DNA of 64,000 bases. It comes from Lobosporangium transversale (Eukaryota; Mortierellomycota; Mortierellomycetes; Mortierellales; Mortierellaceae). The DNA lies in contig NW_019029014.1 of the NCBI RefSeq assembly GCF_002105155.1, positions 124,001 to 188,000 on the forward strand, given 5' to 3'. A model generated the notes under the pieces. It ran no database searches, was not told the DNA's origin, and was given only the letters and a program-made list of their open reading frames with translations. Below are positions 15,342-23,419 of the stretch, piece by piece (the first letter of the stretch is position 1; each line of letters begins with the position of its first letter). A program made the translations under genes and the position numbers.

Positions 15342-16036
15342 TTTGAGATGAGTGAAGATCTACTTGTCTTTAGAATAGTTTGGTCGAGACGTATAGGAAG
15401 AGTCGAACAAAAAATAATAATATGTTGCAATTGTTTTTTTGGATGAAGAATTCAATTAATGAGAATGGGTTACTTTGTTTGCTTGCTGAGCAAAAATAAA
15501 TATTCACAACCGAGCGCAACATATTTATTGTCATTGTTGAATGCAATGCTCTCATGCTCACTAACAGTACTACGTATGGTACTTTGCTCAAACAACATGC
15601 ATTTCTCAGATGATTCTTTATTTCTGCTTCTCTTGAGCTTTCATTTATACTTGCTATTTTTTTAATATTAATGTATTTTCCGTTTCACATCTGAACGGCA
15701 ACATGAAGGTGGTAGTGTAATCAAGATAGGTGTAACCATTGATGTGATACACCATGCAATTGAGGATTGTGCCATGCGATCAATTTTTTTTTAGCTATTA
15801 CTCTTACTTTTCATGGGAATGTTCCACACTGAGGGTTATTAGGTTTTACCACATCGTGATAGTCTGTGTATTTGTATTGTATAGTCCGTCCCATTAAAAA
15901 ACGAGACATTCCATCTAGTGTTAAAAGAAGAAGTGTATTAGAACAAAGAAATAAAAAGTATTATCAAGCCAATACTTACAATTTTTTTAAGACGAAGGCC
16001 TTTCTGGACCTAGTCATGTTTGTAGTAGATTGTGTC
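15342..16036. other. Downstream flank of the Fanzor gene; possible guide-RNA region
   Basis: About 0.7 kb of AT-rich sequence between the monooxygenase start and the Fanzor stop codon. No ORF is convincing. In characterised Fanzor/TnpB elements the guide (omega) RNA derives from the region overlapping and following the nuclease 3' end, which here would be this interval on the minus strand. I could not identify a conserved hairpin or element terminus by eye, so this is only a place to look. Confidence 0.3.
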
Positions 16037-18716
16037 CTACTGTTGTTGCCGGCTTGTCTTTCCCCCTCCTCCTGGACCCAGCAAAGGTCCTTTCGGTGGT
16101 CTTGATCCCTCTACTCCTCCTCCTCCTTCATCTGAAAATTTCCTTTTTGTGGGTCTGCTACTACCACCACCACTGCCACCACTGCCACCACTGCCACCAC
16201 TACCTCCACCGCCGCCACTACCGCTAGAAGCTTGGCCTTGAGTTCCTCCGTCCGGCGGCATATATTTTGCAGGTCGTTTTTGCTCTCTTATCTGCGACTC
16301 ACAGACCCTTGCGATGTTCTCAGCACCAACAGCATCTCGATCAAAGTATGCTTTACAATTTCGACAGTACTTGGATCGAAAAGGAACATTCTCCAATATA
16401 CTGTCACAGTGAGGCCGTGGACACTTGGCAGATGTGTAGTATTCATGACAACCTGCAATGGGGTAGTCTAGAGATTTTGCCTGCTCGAGCCAGATTTAAT
16501 ACTCGTTAAAAAAGAGACTCAAAAATTAAATGTCATTGATCAAGGGATTTTTTTTTTTTTTTTACCTTTTCAACAAGCTTCTTCATCAATATCCCATGAT
16601 CCAAGCCCAATACAGATCACCGCATTCGTATTGGCATCTCTTCTTCTTCCATTGCTTCCGCCCGCAAGCTTCAGAATTGCCTTGATCACATAATCAACGC
16701 ATCTGTTCTGTGCTTTTCTAATATCCCAGCTATTCCGAACAAACCACCCGTCATTATAGAAATCGACAAGCGTCCTATATATAGTCTCCCTATTGTCGTC
16801 ACTGGTCCCAGATCTCTCTGCTCCACTACTACTACTGACCCTAACCCCACTACCAGAGAAACTACCTCCAGTACTTGATGGAGCTTGATTTGGCGGCAAG
16901 CTCATATAAGCGAAATACTGTGTTAAAGTAGGCCTTGAGAATGACGGAATATTGCTTTCAATCTCTGTAATTCCTCTTCTAAGCTTTCGCCTCTCTAGCT
17001 CGCCCTGAAACTTCTTGGATGGTTTGTAAAGGTACGCTCTAAAAATCCGGAGGATCTCACGTTCGTTAGGTTTCCTTGGATCCAACTTTGCAATTGTCAT
17101 CGAGTACCTCTCGCCTGGATCGATCCCAATACTTTCGGGGGGAGGGCATGCTGCCTGAGTGTCATATTTAACTTCTACATTCTCGAGGAGACGCGATCTC
17201 TGCTTCTAGTTGATCTCACGCTGGGGACTGGGACTCACCGGGGACAGTGGATTTGTGCTCGATGTACCTTCTTCAGCTGCTTCTTCTCCCTCGTTGCCAT
17301 CTAAGAATGGTTCATCGACTTCCAGCAAGTCAATATCGCTGATACCCAGCAAGATATCGTCATCTTCATTTCCGTCGTCGTCTCCATCATCACCACCATC
17401 GCCTGCACCATGGCCTGAAAACGAGGACCCCTGCTGAGCACTTGAAGAAGCCTGGACTGCTTGAGATCTTTGAGTATCCGAAGGTTGGGCAGCTTGCGAA
17501 CCTCTACCTCTTTTTTGCTTCGATGTGTCATAGGCAAGAAGTGTTAGGGTAAGGCCGTTTGTAAAGAACGATGTCCGTAGTTTCCTTCTAGGGCCATCAT
17601 CAGATTGCAGTCCAACGTCCTTGTATCCTTTCAAGGAAAACAGCTCCTGCAACAATATCCCCTTGTGGTTAAGGATCTTGTCCTCAGCAGCCCCCTTGGT
17701 ACTCATGTTTAGTTCCAACAATTGGACTATTTCCTCTCGAACTGTTGGGTTAGACGATAATATATCCAGGAGGCAGGCTTCCGTTAGGCAGAGAGACCAA
17801 GGTGAGAAAGCAGACGTAGGGAAATCCAGATATTTTTTGGCAGTTGCATTTTGCTCAAAAAAGAATTGGATGGAGCTTCTTCCATCGCCTGGAATATCTA
17901 TGTCAAATTAGACATTATATTGAAGAAATGATTAGGAACATTTCTATAAACATATTATAAGATAACCTCAAAATATTATAATATTATATTTTCCTGCGCA
18001 TTCCGATAGTGAGACCTTAGCGCTGCTTGAACAGGGACCATGACCATCCGATACGACTTGCTGATCACCAAATCGGGATAGATCTGGTTTAAAGGACCAA
18101 GCCCTGTCTTTGCATAGAAGTATTCGTATGCTTTGAGCTGGGACGGCTTGGCTACGTTCCCTTCGCCTTTTTTCTTCACTTCCCTGCTATACCTAGATAA
18201 TGGACTCATCACTCCGTGATACAACAACGCAGCAAGGCCGTAAATAAAGTCCCTGCTATCAAGAACTTCATCTAGGAGTTGTGGGAGATCAGCTGGATTG
18301 GATGGCCCAGTGGTAAGCAGGTTATCGATCCACAAGGCGCAGGCCCAGAAAGCTCGAATCCGTGCCTCATTCAACATTTTAATAAATGATTGAATGAGCC
18401 CTTGAATTGTTGCAGCAAGTTGCTCGGGATTGAGATTGGGATCGAAAGTAGAGTCCAGCTTGGCAACTACACATGTCTTTAACGTGCCCAGAGTTAATGC
18501 AACAGTGGGGTGGGCCCTCTTCAACCGTCGGTCCTCGGCAGTAGCCTCCTTCACTTTCCTGGTCTTATCAGTCTTTCTGTTATACTTGACCTTCCCTTTG
18601 TTCTTCTTTTTTTTCTTCTTTTCCTCCTTAACCTCCTCTTCTTTCTCATCCTCTTTTTTTTCCTTTTCCTTTTTTTTTGGGGGACTTTCTTTGACGGCTG
18701 GAGCTGACGGGACGGT
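16037..18716 (-). other. Fanzor (eukaryotic TnpB-like RuvC nuclease) half of the fusion gene, decayed
   Basis: Fanzors are RNA-guided DNA nucleases carried by eukaryotic mobile elements. Segments: about 17976-18716 (N-terminal, AHPTVALTLGTLKTCV...), about 17239-17900, 16566-17154 and 16037-16480. RuvC-I is IGIDPGERYSMTIAKLD, with its catalytic Asp. The C-terminal zinc ribbon reads GCHEYYTSAKCPRPHC... KYCRNCKAYF and runs straight into RuvC-III DRDAVGAENIARV with its Asp. A Gly/Ser-rich tail with a basic KRK patch ends the protein. An in-frame TAG at 17206-17208 is explained by an 84-nt intron (17155-17238, donor GTGAGT, acceptor ACTCAG, both phase 0). Upstream of the last intron, the frame that splices properly (ATGAAGAAGCTTGTTGAAAAG on the minus strand) is shifted from the GLGSW frame, which would otherwise hit TGA. 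The RuvC-II region is thus damaged. The junction between 17900 and 17990 lacks a clean donor in the right phase. Confidence 0.85.
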
Positions 18717-19874
18717 CGTGTTGTTTGCAGTTGGTCAGGTCATTTTTCTTAGGGGAAAGTTCCTTTTTCTGGGTGCGATTCGGCTTTGCGCATTTAGGGA
18801 TATAGAATCTAATTAGGAACAACAATGTCAAGGGTTACAGGGGTTAGATGACTTTTTTTTTTTTTTTTTTTTTTTTTTGTATATGCTTTGGAAAATGTTC
18901 ATTTGAAGGAGCTTACCTGGGTTGAGGTTGATTATTTTTATTCTGGTACCTAGCAGCTATCGCAGTCCTCATTCTATCATGGTAATGAAGTAATCTTTCA
19001 GCGGTTGGTTGCTGCGAGGCCTGGGTTTGGATCCCACCAAAGAAAACATTAATTGAATGGTCAAACTGGCCTTCTGCAGGAGTTCGACGGCTACGGGCAT
19101 GGACCTCACGAACATATGATACCGTCAACTTTTCGGCATCAGTGTCAGTGAGCGCGGAGATAATCTCAGCATTTGTAGCAAGACCAAAGGTTGGGATATT
19201 TGGGGTGTAATCGTTATCGGATATAACGCCATAGACCAGGAGTTGACTGTCCCTTGAAAACCCAAGGGCTTGCAGGACCTCTTGTTTCTCATAGAGTGCA
19301 AACATGTGATGGCGACGAGGGATTGGACGAAGAACTCCTTTTATAGAAGGATAGATGAGAAGGTCAGAGTCCCCAGACACAGCGATACTGGTTGGTGTAC
19401 ATTTGGCGGCAATACACACATCAGCCTCATTTCTACAATGGCAAATCACAAAGTTATTGTATCGACCGAATGGCGCCGCGAGCTCCCTCTTCTCGTTATG
19501 ACTGAATGTGAAGAGCTGTCGAAGATTCTTTTTAATAGCAATCATATGGCTTCGAGATTCCCATTTGCCTTCATTGGACTTGGTTTCCATGTTGGCTATG
19601 AGCGTATCGAGTTTTGCATCCGCTGCTGTACGCTTAGCATCTCGGTCCCTATAGGCGCGCGTTTTTTCTTCGCAGCGAGGCCCATCAATGTGTATCGTCA
19701 CTGTGGCAAGAGGACCAAAGATTTTTCGAATGATACTAGCCATAGCATGGCCGCAGGCAGTGAAAGAACTCTGCCGGCTGAATCTCCTTAGGATGATATT
19801 ATGTATATCGCTGTGGAAAGTGCCAAGCAGATCCAGCTCAAAAGATGAATGGGGTTCAGCAGCAAGCTCATGTA

Positions 19875-19903
19875 CAGTCACCTAAAACAAAGATTGGACA
19901 AAA
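19875..19903 (+). repeat. Left terminal inverted repeat of the Tc1/mariner element
   Basis: Starts CAGTCACCTAAAACAAAG and continues to GGACAAAA. It mirrors 21179-21207 with three mismatches. Read on the minus strand it ends TTTTAG|GTGACTG, which looks like a 3' splice site just inside the element. Confidence 0.95.
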
Positions 19904-19995
19904 AAATAAAATATTGAAATAGTTACGTAGGGAAGCGTTTCCTTCAATCTCTTTCCTTCCTGTTTTTCACATACAAACAGCTTGAGTAAACCACC

Positions 19996-21006
19996 ATGGC
20001 GAGACACTTAGACATTGAGAATAAAGGTATCATCGTTGGAATGCACCTCGCGGGCATGAAGGCTGCAGAAATCGCATTGCAACGCGGTGTACCCCGAACC
20101 TCTGTTATTAATATTATCAGGGTGTACCAAGAAAGAGGCACCACTGCTTGCACTCCGATCCCAGGACGGCCCAAAGTACTAAGTGAACGGGACCTCAGGA
20201 GCATCGTTCGCCATACTAAGCAGAATAGAAGGTGTACTCTTAATGATATCACTAACCAATTGCCGAACAAAGTTTGCGAGAGGACAGTTGCGAAGGCATT
20301 GCATTCACTGGGTATTTTCAGCCGGATTGCAGTAAAAAAACCATTCTTAAAAGAAGGACATATAAAAAGGAGGCTGCAGTTTGTCAAAAAATATATGAGT
20401 TGGTCCATGGAAGACTGGAATCGGGTAGTTTGGACTGACGAATCATTTGAAGTTGGTGAGCATTTTCGTCAAATAAGAGTTTGGCGTAAAGTAGAGGAAA
20501 AGTACGATCATGATTGCCTCGCACCCACTTTCAAAAGTGGTAGAACAACTCTGATGGTCTGGGGGGCGTTCACAGCAACCAGAAAGTCTCGGTTGGTTGT
20601 ATTTGAAAGAGGTCGTAAAGATGGACGGTGTTTCGTGGAAGATGTATATCAAGGCGAGCTAGCCAGATTTATGGCTGAGGTAGGGGATGGCATACTTATG
20701 GAGGATAATGCTCCAGTTCATACTTGTAAGATTGCAAAAGAATGGCGCGAAAAAAACAGCATCCCGAGGATTCCAGACTGGCCTTCATGCTCCCCAGATT
20801 TGAACCCTATTGAACATGTATGGTCACTTCTTGCGGATGCACTCGATAGGCGCGCTAAAGGGCCAAGAGATCTTCCCACTCTCACACGGGCTCTTATCGA
20901 AGAGTGGAATAATTTACCGCAAGAGAGGCTGGCCAGCCTTGTCGCTACCATGCCCGAAAGGCTGGAAGAAGTGAATGGGGTCGATGGTAGGAACACTCAC
21001 TATTGA
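19996..21006 (+). CDS. Tc1/mariner-family transposase (DDE)
   Basis: Cut-and-paste transposase of 336 aa, single exon, ATG 19996 in a good context (CCACCATGG). The N-terminus has two helix-turn-helix units (MKAAEIALQRGVPRTSVINI, then CTLNDITNQLPNKV...) separated by a GRPK motif, as in Tc1 paired-like DNA-binding domains that bind the terminal repeats. Catalytic residues: D148 in WTDES, D237 in MEDNAPVHT and E273 in SPDLNPIEHVW. By my count 35 residues lie between the second Asp and Glu, one more than the canonical Tc1 DD34E. No stop or frameshift is seen, so the protein should be functional. It lies inside its element with short 5' (121 bp) and 3' (201 bp) noncoding flanks and carries its own start. 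Related fossil sequence lies near 60.6 kb. Confidence 0.97.
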   Translation: MARHLDIENKGIIVGMHLAGMKAAEIALQRGVPRTSVINIIRVYQERGTTACTPIPGRPKVLSERDLRSIVRHTKQNRRCTLNDITNQLPNKVCERTVAKALHSLGIFSRIAVKKPFLKEGHIKRRLQFVKKYMSWSMEDWNRVVWTDESFEVGEHFRQIRVWRKVEEKYDHDCLAPTFKSGRTTLMVWGAFTATRKSRLVVFERGRKDGRCFVEDVYQGELARFMAEVGDGILMEDNAPVHTCKIAKEWREKNSIPRIPDWPSCSPDLNPIEHVWSLLADALDRRAKGPRDLPTLTRALIEEWNNLPQERLASLVATMPERLEEVNGVDGRNTHY

Positions 21007-21178
21007 ACCTACATGGCACTTTTGCTACTCTAACAATGCCGTCTTCAAAACCCCAATAAATAACAGTATTGACCTCTTTAGTGAGCATGTAAAATTTCAT
21101 GTGTATTGATGAAGTCTTTATGTATGTTGCATATGAGCTGTTTGTCCAGGTTGTTCAAAAAAAAATCAAGAAAATCCA

Positions 21179-21207
21179 TTTTGTCCAAACTTTATTTCAG
21201 GTGACTG
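21179..21207 (-). repeat. Right terminal inverted repeat of the Tc1/mariner element
   Basis: On the minus strand it starts CAGTCACCTGAAATAAAG and continues to GGACAAAA, pairing with 19875-19903. The adjacent TA (21208-21209) is the target duplication. Confidence 0.95.
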
Positions 21208-21273
21208 TACATCAATCTCCTTTGGTGGCAGGTCTCTCCTTGAAAGGTATGAATAGACTCCTTTAATACCCAT

Positions 21274-23419
21274 CTAGAGAAAGTATAGTGTAAAACAGTG
21301 CAAGCAATGTTGGTTTAAGCGGCTAAAGATTGAAGCTGAAGTTGTTAGAGTAGAGATAGTTTACCTTTAAGAAAGCAAAAAGTTATGATCTATGCGGGGA
21401 TGAGGGTGTAAGAGTACGGGTGAGAGCGCGAAAGCAATGTCGTTGTAAAATGAGAGAGAGAGAGAGGGAAAAGAGAGGGAGGCAGGACGTATTTATAGGT
21501 GTATGAAAGAGAACGAAACAAAAGGCTGATGAATTTGGAACAACTCGAAACAACAAGATTCTCAGCGACAAGTTTTAACTTTTTGGATTTCGAGTATTGT
21601 TTACAGCTCTTCTCCAATCATCTACATTTACCAAATCAAGCCTTCGCCATGACAATCAACAAGAAATAAAAAAAATAAAAAAAAATAAAAAAAAAAAACA
21701 GACTTCCTTACGTCCCCCCTCGGTATGTGTATCTGTCTGAACACGTCCTAACTGACATCCTCTCGACAACCCTTCCAAGGCTGCAGTGTTTGAATGTGTA
21801 CAGGGAACAAAAGAGGTCTAGATACAGGCTCTCTTTGTGACATTGAAGGAGATCGCATGTTTCATGGCTATCAAGACAAGGTACCCCTACAGGCACAAGA
21901 CAAAGGTATAACTCGGCTCAAACTCAAAGGAACGATTTTACCAATGGCCTTGTTATGAATCCACTTGCCTATGACACAGTCCAGACGAAGAGACAGCAGC
22001 AGTCTGACGTAGATGAAGAAGATCTCAGCCAGGAATTGAAACTTTCTCAAGGATTCCTTAACACGGCGTGTTTTAAAGGCAGCCGGTGAAGACCTGACAG
22101 ATGAAGACTACGCAAACATAAACTGGAAGAGGAGCCCCAAACTTCTTGAAAACGTTGGACTCATATTCCATGAGCTAGGGCGATGCTCATCTGCAAATAC
22201 CACAACTACCGTCTAATGCGATCCTGGTATTGTTAATGCCCTTACGTTTCTTCGCTAGATCGTCACAACCCTGACCTGCATCAAACGGTGAAGGTGAGAA
22301 GTAGGCTCGTCAACAGCCTGTGTGCCTTATATGCGTTGCACCAATGCTCACTGACAGGTTGAGTCCAAACTCGAGATATCAAAATAGCCTTCGTTGAATC
22401 CATGGGGAGGAAAGACACCAAGCCGGCAACAACAATAGGATATGATCAGTTGCATATTTCACAGTACACGTGTTACATGAAAATTTATACAGACATACTA
22501 ACAGCTCTATGCCCCATGGTGTGGTGCCCGAGACAAACTTGCAGTTTTATTTTGATACAAATTTGGATAAATGCCCCATGGATGTGATGTGTGAACCCAC
22601 ATCCTATTCTCACTTCTGCTCCCTGGTTACTATTTGTCTGTCTAAAATTTTTCATGAGCTACTACAAACATGACTAGGTCGGGAAAGGCCTTCGTCTTGA
22701 AAAAGTTGTAAGTATTAGCTTGACAGTGCTTTCTTGACTAATCTCTTTATTTCTATGCTTGGTCTAGATGGTGTTTTTTTATGGGGAGGACTATTTAGAC
22801 AACATATAGACCCCACATATCTTAATCATAATAAATTGGTTTGGTGGCATTGTTGTAAAAAATATCTTTGCTTAAGGGACAGAAAGATAGACACAATCAG
22901 GAAAAGGCAGGACAAAGAGTGTCAACAAGATTGACAAGAGAAAATAGAGTCAAATAACCTTGACTACAAACAGCGCCATAGAATGTCAAAAGAAAAGATG
23001 GGAGCTTTATAGGTGAGCTCACAAACTGAGTTACCGGAAGACAAATGCTTGTTGTGAAAAGGGGAAAAAGATAAATGGCAAGATGAACTGCGGGTGAAGA
23101 ATAAGACATGTGGGGAAAACTGAAGACTTTATTAAGAAGGAAGTTTCTTTGGCTTTTATACTCGGTAGTTTCTAGGTGAGGCGGACCCGCCTATGACTAC
23201 AAAGGGCTTTGCGCAAAGATTCCTTTAAGCTGGTTCGACAGATTAGTGGATACAAAATAAACTGAAGTTAATTTTAATGACCAGTCACACCACTTGCAAT
23301 AACAAGCGAGTCAATTGGCTGCCAATACATTTAAGAGTATTCAAAAAATATAAGGGATCGCGACGGGCTGTATATTTTTCCACTAACATGACAATATGTA
23401 GAATGAAGCTAAATTGAGA
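21274..23419. other. Gene-poor spacer upstream of the XPG-Fanzor gene
   Basis: About 2.1 kb. It includes GA-rich sequence near 21440-21480, A-rich runs near 21665-21700 and the coding-like remnant listed separately at 21954-22215. The rest is AT-rich without a credible ORF. The proximal part should hold the promoter of the XPG-Fanzor gene. Confidence 0.45.
21954..22215 (+). pseudogene. Possible decayed coding remnant of unknown origin
   Basis: ATG 21954 opens 44 codons reading MNPLAYDTVQTKRQQQSDV... then stops. The next frame continues with protein-like composition (EDLTDEDYANINWKRSPKLL and ENVGLIFHELGRCSS) to a stop near 22215. Two adjacent frames with coding-like content suggest an old gene broken by a frameshift or a missed intron. 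No family recognised, so confidence is low. Confidence 0.25.

Follow-up and report, generated by a model that had tools for sequence, protein, structure and literature searches.

Gene layout at the locus

The window (the whole 64,000-nt stretch that was analysed; Lobosporangium transversale, GCF_002105155.1, contig NW_019029014.1, positions 124,001-188,000 of the forward strand) carries a gene, read on the minus strand from 21273 to 16037, that joins an XPG/FEN1-like domain to a Fanzor (Table 1). Fanzors are eukaryotic RNA-guided nucleases. The initial annotation had placed an MGIKGVYSYL start, RuvC-I, a zinc ribbon and RuvC-III in this interval, and all four were found there: RuvC-I (IGIDPGERYS) reads from 17130, the block with the glutamate and the zinc ribbon from 16447, and DRDAVGAENI from 16342, ahead of a stop codon at 16039-16037. 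It had also described one phase-2 intron, and intron 1 is indeed of phase 2 with GT-AG borders, but three introns precede the stop.

The window copy is damaged in both halves. Exon 1 is split by a Tc1/mariner element flanked by a TA target duplication (21209-21210 and 19873-19874), the transposase frame of which is open and gives profile matches to HTH_Tnp_Tc3_2 (3.6e-15) and DDE_3 (2e-13). In exon 2 the junction motif is partly deleted and, as had been noted initially, the frame of the linker is broken. Intron 2 is mutated at both of its splice sites, which are intact in all 14 aligned relatives, and the last part of exon 3 has a small deletion relative to the related copy L013. The zinc ribbon of exon 4 matches PF07282 at 2.2e-6. 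Judged from the Tc1 insertion and the lesions in the linker, intron 2 and exon 3, the window copy is dead. Among the matches listed, the Tc1/mariner element has 22 further copies in the genome at 97-100% identity, a set that by this similarity represents a recent burst. A FAD-binding monooxygenase-like gene (PF01494; 13618-15359, minus strand) adjoins the locus and lies outside the element described below.

Table 1. Features of the fusion gene and its element in the window.
Feature	Position	Strand	Description
Whole transposable element, window copy	15879..23370 (about)	-	Ends compared in 14 copies, both found in 11
3' non-coding end	15879..16036	-	Expected place of the guide RNA scaffold, by published Fanzor loci
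Exon 4	16037..16480	-	Alternative RuvC-II glutamate, C4 zinc ribbon (TNB), RuvC-III (DRDAVG), Gly/Ser-rich tail, stop
Intron 3	16481..16565	-	
Exon 3	16566..17907	-	Fanzor core with RuvC-I; end damaged
Intron 2	17908..17993	-	Donor and acceptor mutated in the window copy alone (15 copies aligned)
Exon 2	17994..18808	-	Junction motif FYI...NCxQHDRP, Lys/Glu-rich linker, Fanzor N-terminal part
Intron 1	18809..18916	-	Phase 2, GT-AG; between XPG domain and junction segment
Exon 1, remainder of XPG/FEN1-like domain	18917..19874	-	Domain identity taken from relatives
Tc1/mariner element within exon 1	19875..21208	+	Transposase ORF 19990-21006
Exon 1, first part	21209..21273	-	Start of XPG/FEN1-like domain, MGIKGVYSYL
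Antisense family-B-type Fanzor relic	21797..22252	+	In element 5' region; 56% identity, stops inside

The gene is carried by a multi-copy transposable element

The element extends beyond the gene initially reported and is bounded by the terminal inverted repeat GTATAG[C/T]CCGT[T/C]CCATT, slightly damaged at the 5' end of the window copy. A DNA search of the same genome (42.7 Mb, 127 contigs) returned many copies at 90-97% identity, here called family A. Multiple copies and inverted ends agree with a feature of Fanzor1 proteins, carriage by a eukaryotic transposon other than IS607. Because the element holds no frame of more than 97 codons besides the fusion gene and the Tc1 insertion, it is presumably moved by the enzyme of another element; none of the six window frames scanned contains a recombinase domain. 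Published fungal Fanzor elements likewise have inverted repeats and lack a transposase of their own, but they carry MuDR-type ends and 9-bp duplications, whereas no such duplication was seen by eye in the 11 family A copies with both ends, so that a MuDR-type element is not supported. A TA target duplication is possible for the family A element.

The family-B-type Fanzor relic that lies antisense in the element's 5' region recurs in other family A copies (24 rows in the genome search), and the family A element therefore looks like a composite of two oppositely directed Fanzor units.

Both nucleases are encoded in one frame in related copies

The window copy was aligned with the 14 other family A copies that retain the start codon, and these 14 were translated through the three introns with no base altered. 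Introns 1 and 2 are GT-AG in all of them; the intron 3 region has been lost in three (L017-L019). Exon 1 is intact in all 14, and 13 break downstream before RuvC-III. The exception, L013, reads for 1,209 residues with Fanzor motifs through RuvC-III, and only its tail beyond that point is frame-shifted. The linker is passed by seven of the 14 copies, with 944 residues reached in L018 and L019, 766 in L009, 657 in L023, 594 in L014 and 497 in L015. The remaining seven end at residues 370-431, six of them in or near the Lys/Glu tract and L012 earlier. Some of these frame breaks could be homopolymer assembly errors. The pN/pS ratio is 0.39 in exon 1 and 0.36-0.52 across both halves, a purifying signature in each, and 1.55 in the junction plus linker.

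A second family, B, shares 31% identity with A over the XPG exon and 38% over the Fanzor core. Eight of its loci were retrieved (L027-L030 and L049-L052), four of which (L027, L049, L050 and L051) have a recognisable start and six recognisable splice sites. All introns in these four are GT-AG, and intron 1 lies at the homologous place in the identical phase, 2. L049 and L051 read for 984 and 955 residues before breaking near the end of exon 3, while L027 stops at 530 and L050 at 372. The initial annotation had proposed a search for single frames containing both halves, and in L028 one uninterrupted 509-residue frame runs from Met through the XPG domain and the linker into the Fanzor N-terminus. 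This copy lacks intron 1 and some of the junction, so that its XPG domain and Fanzor N-terminus lie in one continuous exon.

The segment of 39 residues directly 3' of intron 1 aligns between families A and B without a gap, with 17 of 39 positions identical; none of 20,000 shuffles scored as high, for a segment picked by eye. Such conservation between the families would be unexpected if the junction were non-coding or separately started. Consistent with the initial remark that the Fanzor part has no Met near its start, L013 lacks a Met between residues 323 and 491, with conserved Fanzor sequence from about residue 431, and L027 lacks one between 335 and 458, where residue 458 falls within the matching conserved block. 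In both families the first Met downstream of the XPG half stands inside conserved Fanzor sequence, and a Fanzor paralogue beginning at its own Met, which the initial annotation had named as evidence against a fusion, was seen in neither L013 nor L027.

Two further families, C (L041 and L042) and D (L043), are decayed and keep the XPG-linker-Fanzor order of A and B; L048 is another decayed piece, with an XPG part 47% identical to that of family C. Because four divergent families in one genome share this order, the lineage may be old. The single polypeptide, for which the initial annotation had wanted better-kept relatives, is supported by them within this genome, and no relatives encode the halves as separate genes with starts of their own. 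Two neighbouring genes were ruled out by the lack of a Met between the halves, the conserved junction and the one-exon copy L028, and an assembly chimera by the many copies on different contigs and in several families.

XPG and Fanzor loci are often paired across the genome

Lists of XPG and Fanzor loci were compiled by hand from the genome searches, leaving out second fragments of listed loci, cross-family duplicate rows and the 24 antisense Fanzor relic rows. Of the 93 listed XPG loci, 69 are followed on the same strand by a Fanzor no more than 4 kb away, and only three nearby pairs are arranged otherwise, which excludes chance adjacency. Conversely, an XPG lies upstream of 69 of the 111 listed Fanzor loci and none was found for 42; counting the 24 relic rows would add same-strand Fanzor loci without XPG, against a strict one-to-one pairing.

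Nine of the 42 unpaired Fanzor loci were read and no XPG frame was seen in them; eight, all but L054, have no XPG match of any kind. L025 and L026 are family A copies with internal deletions; L045, L046, L053 and L055 have no Fanzor N-terminal exon in the stretch examined; L047 is decayed, and the contig that holds L054 ends within its exon 2. In the ninth, the decayed family C locus L044, part of the Fanzor N-terminal region survives with no detectable XPG half. With nine of 42 read, an intact XPG-free Fanzor elsewhere in the genome is possible.

The 24 unpaired XPG loci include four strong PF00867 loci, which we take to be host repair genes. The XPG loci of the fusions are separate from these four, and a host repair gene was accordingly ruled out as the identity of the XPG half. 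Two weaker PF00867 loci exceed the cut-off, C13:672316, which is family C, and C117:643640, which is unpaired. The latter (643640-643861, plus strand; XPG_I just over the cut-off) is related to the XPG half of the fusion, and no Fanzor was found nearby.

The XPG/FEN1-like half

The XPG half has the fold common to the FEN1/XPG superfamily, at about 14% identity to known nucleases in structure alignment; the model is of moderate confidence (mean pLDDT 57.6, below 50 past residue 238). In Pfam, XPG_I scores 25.3 in family C, against a cut-off of 24.9, and falls below it in A (13.9) and B (15.9-16.5). The initial claim that all expected acidic positions of FEN1 are kept is right as to charge, since all seven active-site positions are acidic in L013, L027 and L028, but an Asp replaces one Glu: families A and B have Asp as the second acid of the E-x-E pair (E171-A-D173 in L013). 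FEN1, EXO1, XPG (Rad2) and GEN1 thus resemble the XPG half in fold and acidic site and differ from it in the Glu-to-Asp change and the tether to an RNA-guided nuclease. By family, the half is a candidate 5' flap nuclease or 5' exonuclease.

In the alignment, the DSD motif is unchanged in four rows of family A, in four of family B and in L041. Its second Asp is replaced by Asn in L049 and L050, and the Asp of HIDG by Gly in L030; L049 is among the best-kept copies of family B, yet has lost one catalytic Asp.

The Fanzor half

A DPG motif at RuvC-I is a Fanzor1 feature (PMC10711439, in the text available). It is present in family A (IGIDPGERYS), family B (GCDPGIV; ECDPG in the copy L029) and family D (GMDPGEV), and is not found in family C (GLDLGQ in L041). 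The alternative glutamate stands six residues ahead of the zinc ribbon (in family A, E, then YYTSAK, then C) and is invariant (E13) in a five-row alignment of the four families. The Fanzor motif given in the accessible part of PMC3627910, D-X(125,275)-[TS][TS]-X-X-C4 zinc finger-X(5,50)-RD, was matched in L013 as a regular expression. PF07282 exceeds its cut-off in A, C (1.3e-10 at the C-terminus) and D and falls below it in L027 of family B (23.9 against 26.3); the NCBIfam guided_TnpB match is below its cut-off. At the TDG position of the WED domain, A and B read TNG, C reads TDG and D reads TNE. In PDB sequence searches with the Fanzor halves, only the profile of the C-terminal exon gave a useful match, to the mimivirus TnpB-like protein L79 (6.9e-7); the core RuvC exon had none of note. 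The model of the Fanzor core has a pLDDT of 34.

The half shares DPG, the shifted glutamate, the zinc ribbon and RD with the Fanzor1 proteins SpuFz1, GtFz1 and PpFz1, which are likewise carried by eukaryotic transposons; unlike the fusion, these have no N-terminal XPG/FEN1 domain described in the passages available from PMC10432273 and PMC11423790. According to the same passages, PpFz1 has an extra domain, FRI, a RuvC insertion that binds cyclophilin and is not a nuclease, so Fanzors can carry an extra domain. By analogy with the published proteins, we infer that the Fanzor half is RNA-guided, with a guide from the end of the element.

What the fusion may do

Three things can be regarded as established at the level of sequence: the two halves are fused in one frame, a second, divergent family conserves this frame, and each half belongs to the family named here. 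EXO1-type resection or FEN1-type flap removal would favour homologous repair. In our judgement, the only recognised gene of this multi-copy DNA transposon probably encodes a single polypeptide of XPG/FEN1/EXO1 type and Fanzor1 type that acts in guided break repair. Its order would be an N-terminal FEN1/XPG/EXO1-type nuclease, the conserved junction motif with the Lys-rich linker, and a Fanzor1-type nuclease. Loaded with RNA from the 3' end of the element, with flanking DNA as the guide, the Fanzor half would cut the matching, element-free site. At the R-loop junction, or at the 5' end of the break, the XPG half tethered to it would then cleave flaps or carry out 5' resection in the manner of EXO1, in line with the processing of ends or flaps that the initial annotation had suggested. 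Repair would be steered toward homologous copying, which would restore or spread the element; transposase would be supplied by another element. A copy-back idea is discussed for Fanzor in the part of PMC10432273 available. More tentatively, the protein may be a two-nuclease RNA-guided machine whose built-in 5' resection or flap enzyme was selected for pushing guided breaks into copy-back repair.

Several findings weigh against guided break repair by the fused protein. Half of the 14 family A copies break at or before the linker, where pN/pS is high; L049 and L051 break near the end of exon 3 and the tail of L013 is frame-shifted; the XPG half falls below the Pfam cut-off in A and B, with an altered active-site Glu and a model of moderate confidence; and 42 of 111 Fanzor loci have no XPG upstream, L044 keeping its Fanzor N-terminal piece without one. 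The fusion was read from the sequence of a single genome.

The state of the active site bears on an unlikely alternative, that the XPG half, catalytically weak or dead, serves for docking: it would grip branched DNA (R-loop or flap junctions) and aid binding or unwinding by the Fanzor without cutting. The Asp in the E-x-E pair of both families fits it, as do the single losses of further acids in L030, L049 and L050, the well-kept L049 included; however, all seven positions are acidic in L013, L027 and L028, DSD is unchanged in the four A and four B rows and L041, and exon 1 is under constraint (pN/pS 0.39).

Retention of intron 1 might instead yield a free XPG nuclease and its splicing the fusion, with the halves working mostly apart. 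Frames close at the intron 1 donor in both families (after 341 and 349 codons), and exon 1 is intact in all 14 non-window family A copies, 13 of which are broken downstream. A phase-2 intron beginning GTAA, however, always yields a stop, with no selection needed, and the junction 3' of intron 1 is conserved between the families, so we regard two products as distinctly unlikely.

Slightly less probable again is a service to the element itself, in which the XPG half would work not on target breaks but on the guide RNA, maturing its 5' end, or on intermediates of transposition. XRN1, an RNA exonuclease that shares the fold, is among the hits of the fold search, but the best matches are DNA flap and 5' exonucleases and not XRN, and an element with Fanzor1 alone makes its guide RNA according to the text available from PMC10711439. 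A chance joining in a decayed repeat, with the fusion a functionless passenger, would suit the broken state of most copies and of the window copy with Tc1 in exon 1, but is very improbable given that A and B, 31-38% identical, share order, intron place and junction, that the two more divergent families have the same order, and that both halves carry a purifying signature (pN/pS 0.36-0.52).

If guided break repair is the function, the gene would offer a model from nature for joining guided cutting with end resection, a combination that genome engineers at present assemble themselves. That a Fanzor is naturally fused to a nuclease of the break-processing kind would point to repair steering as a role of Fanzors for transposons, and this role is directly testable. 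We found no relatives of the fusion in the viral and prokaryote contig collections scanned, and, in the literature searched, no paper joining Fanzor with XPG or with Mortierella, though an earlier mention elsewhere is possible. One label joins both names, that of 'Fendons', candidate 'Fanzor flap endonuclease homologs' on two animal-virus contigs (PMC11071296); the passage available gives neither domain order nor sequence by which relatedness to the fusion could be judged.

3' non-coding ends and the candidate guide RNA

By analogy with published Fanzor loci, a guide RNA scaffold is expected in the 3' non-coding end of the element (Table 1). An Rfam scan of the window gave no match and a tRNA scan of it was empty. 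A 65-bp stretch of the 3' end recurs inverted near the other end of the element at 92% identity (22640-22800, plus strand; 15860-16042, minus strand), a pattern compatible with a conserved guide RNA scaffold and also with a sub-terminal repeat.

Past the stop, families A (window about 15900-15980, minus strand) and B (L027 4272-4358) each have an intron-like stretch with GTAAGT, a branch-like CTAA and AG. In L027 it ends 11 bases before a sharp 3' end common to four family B copies. In nine other loci, four of which belong to family A, the pattern occurred twice over 102,618 bases (both strands), and its donor is absent from two of 11 family A loci (L009 and L011). Splicing of this stretch could place the element end and its flank beside upstream RNA.

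Short hairpin-like repeats were also seen in the 3' non-coding end of family C (GCGTGT..ACACGC in L041 and L042) and right past the stop in family B (GGGTG..CACCC in L027-L030), with a pairing-preserving G-U change, by eye, in L042 and L030.
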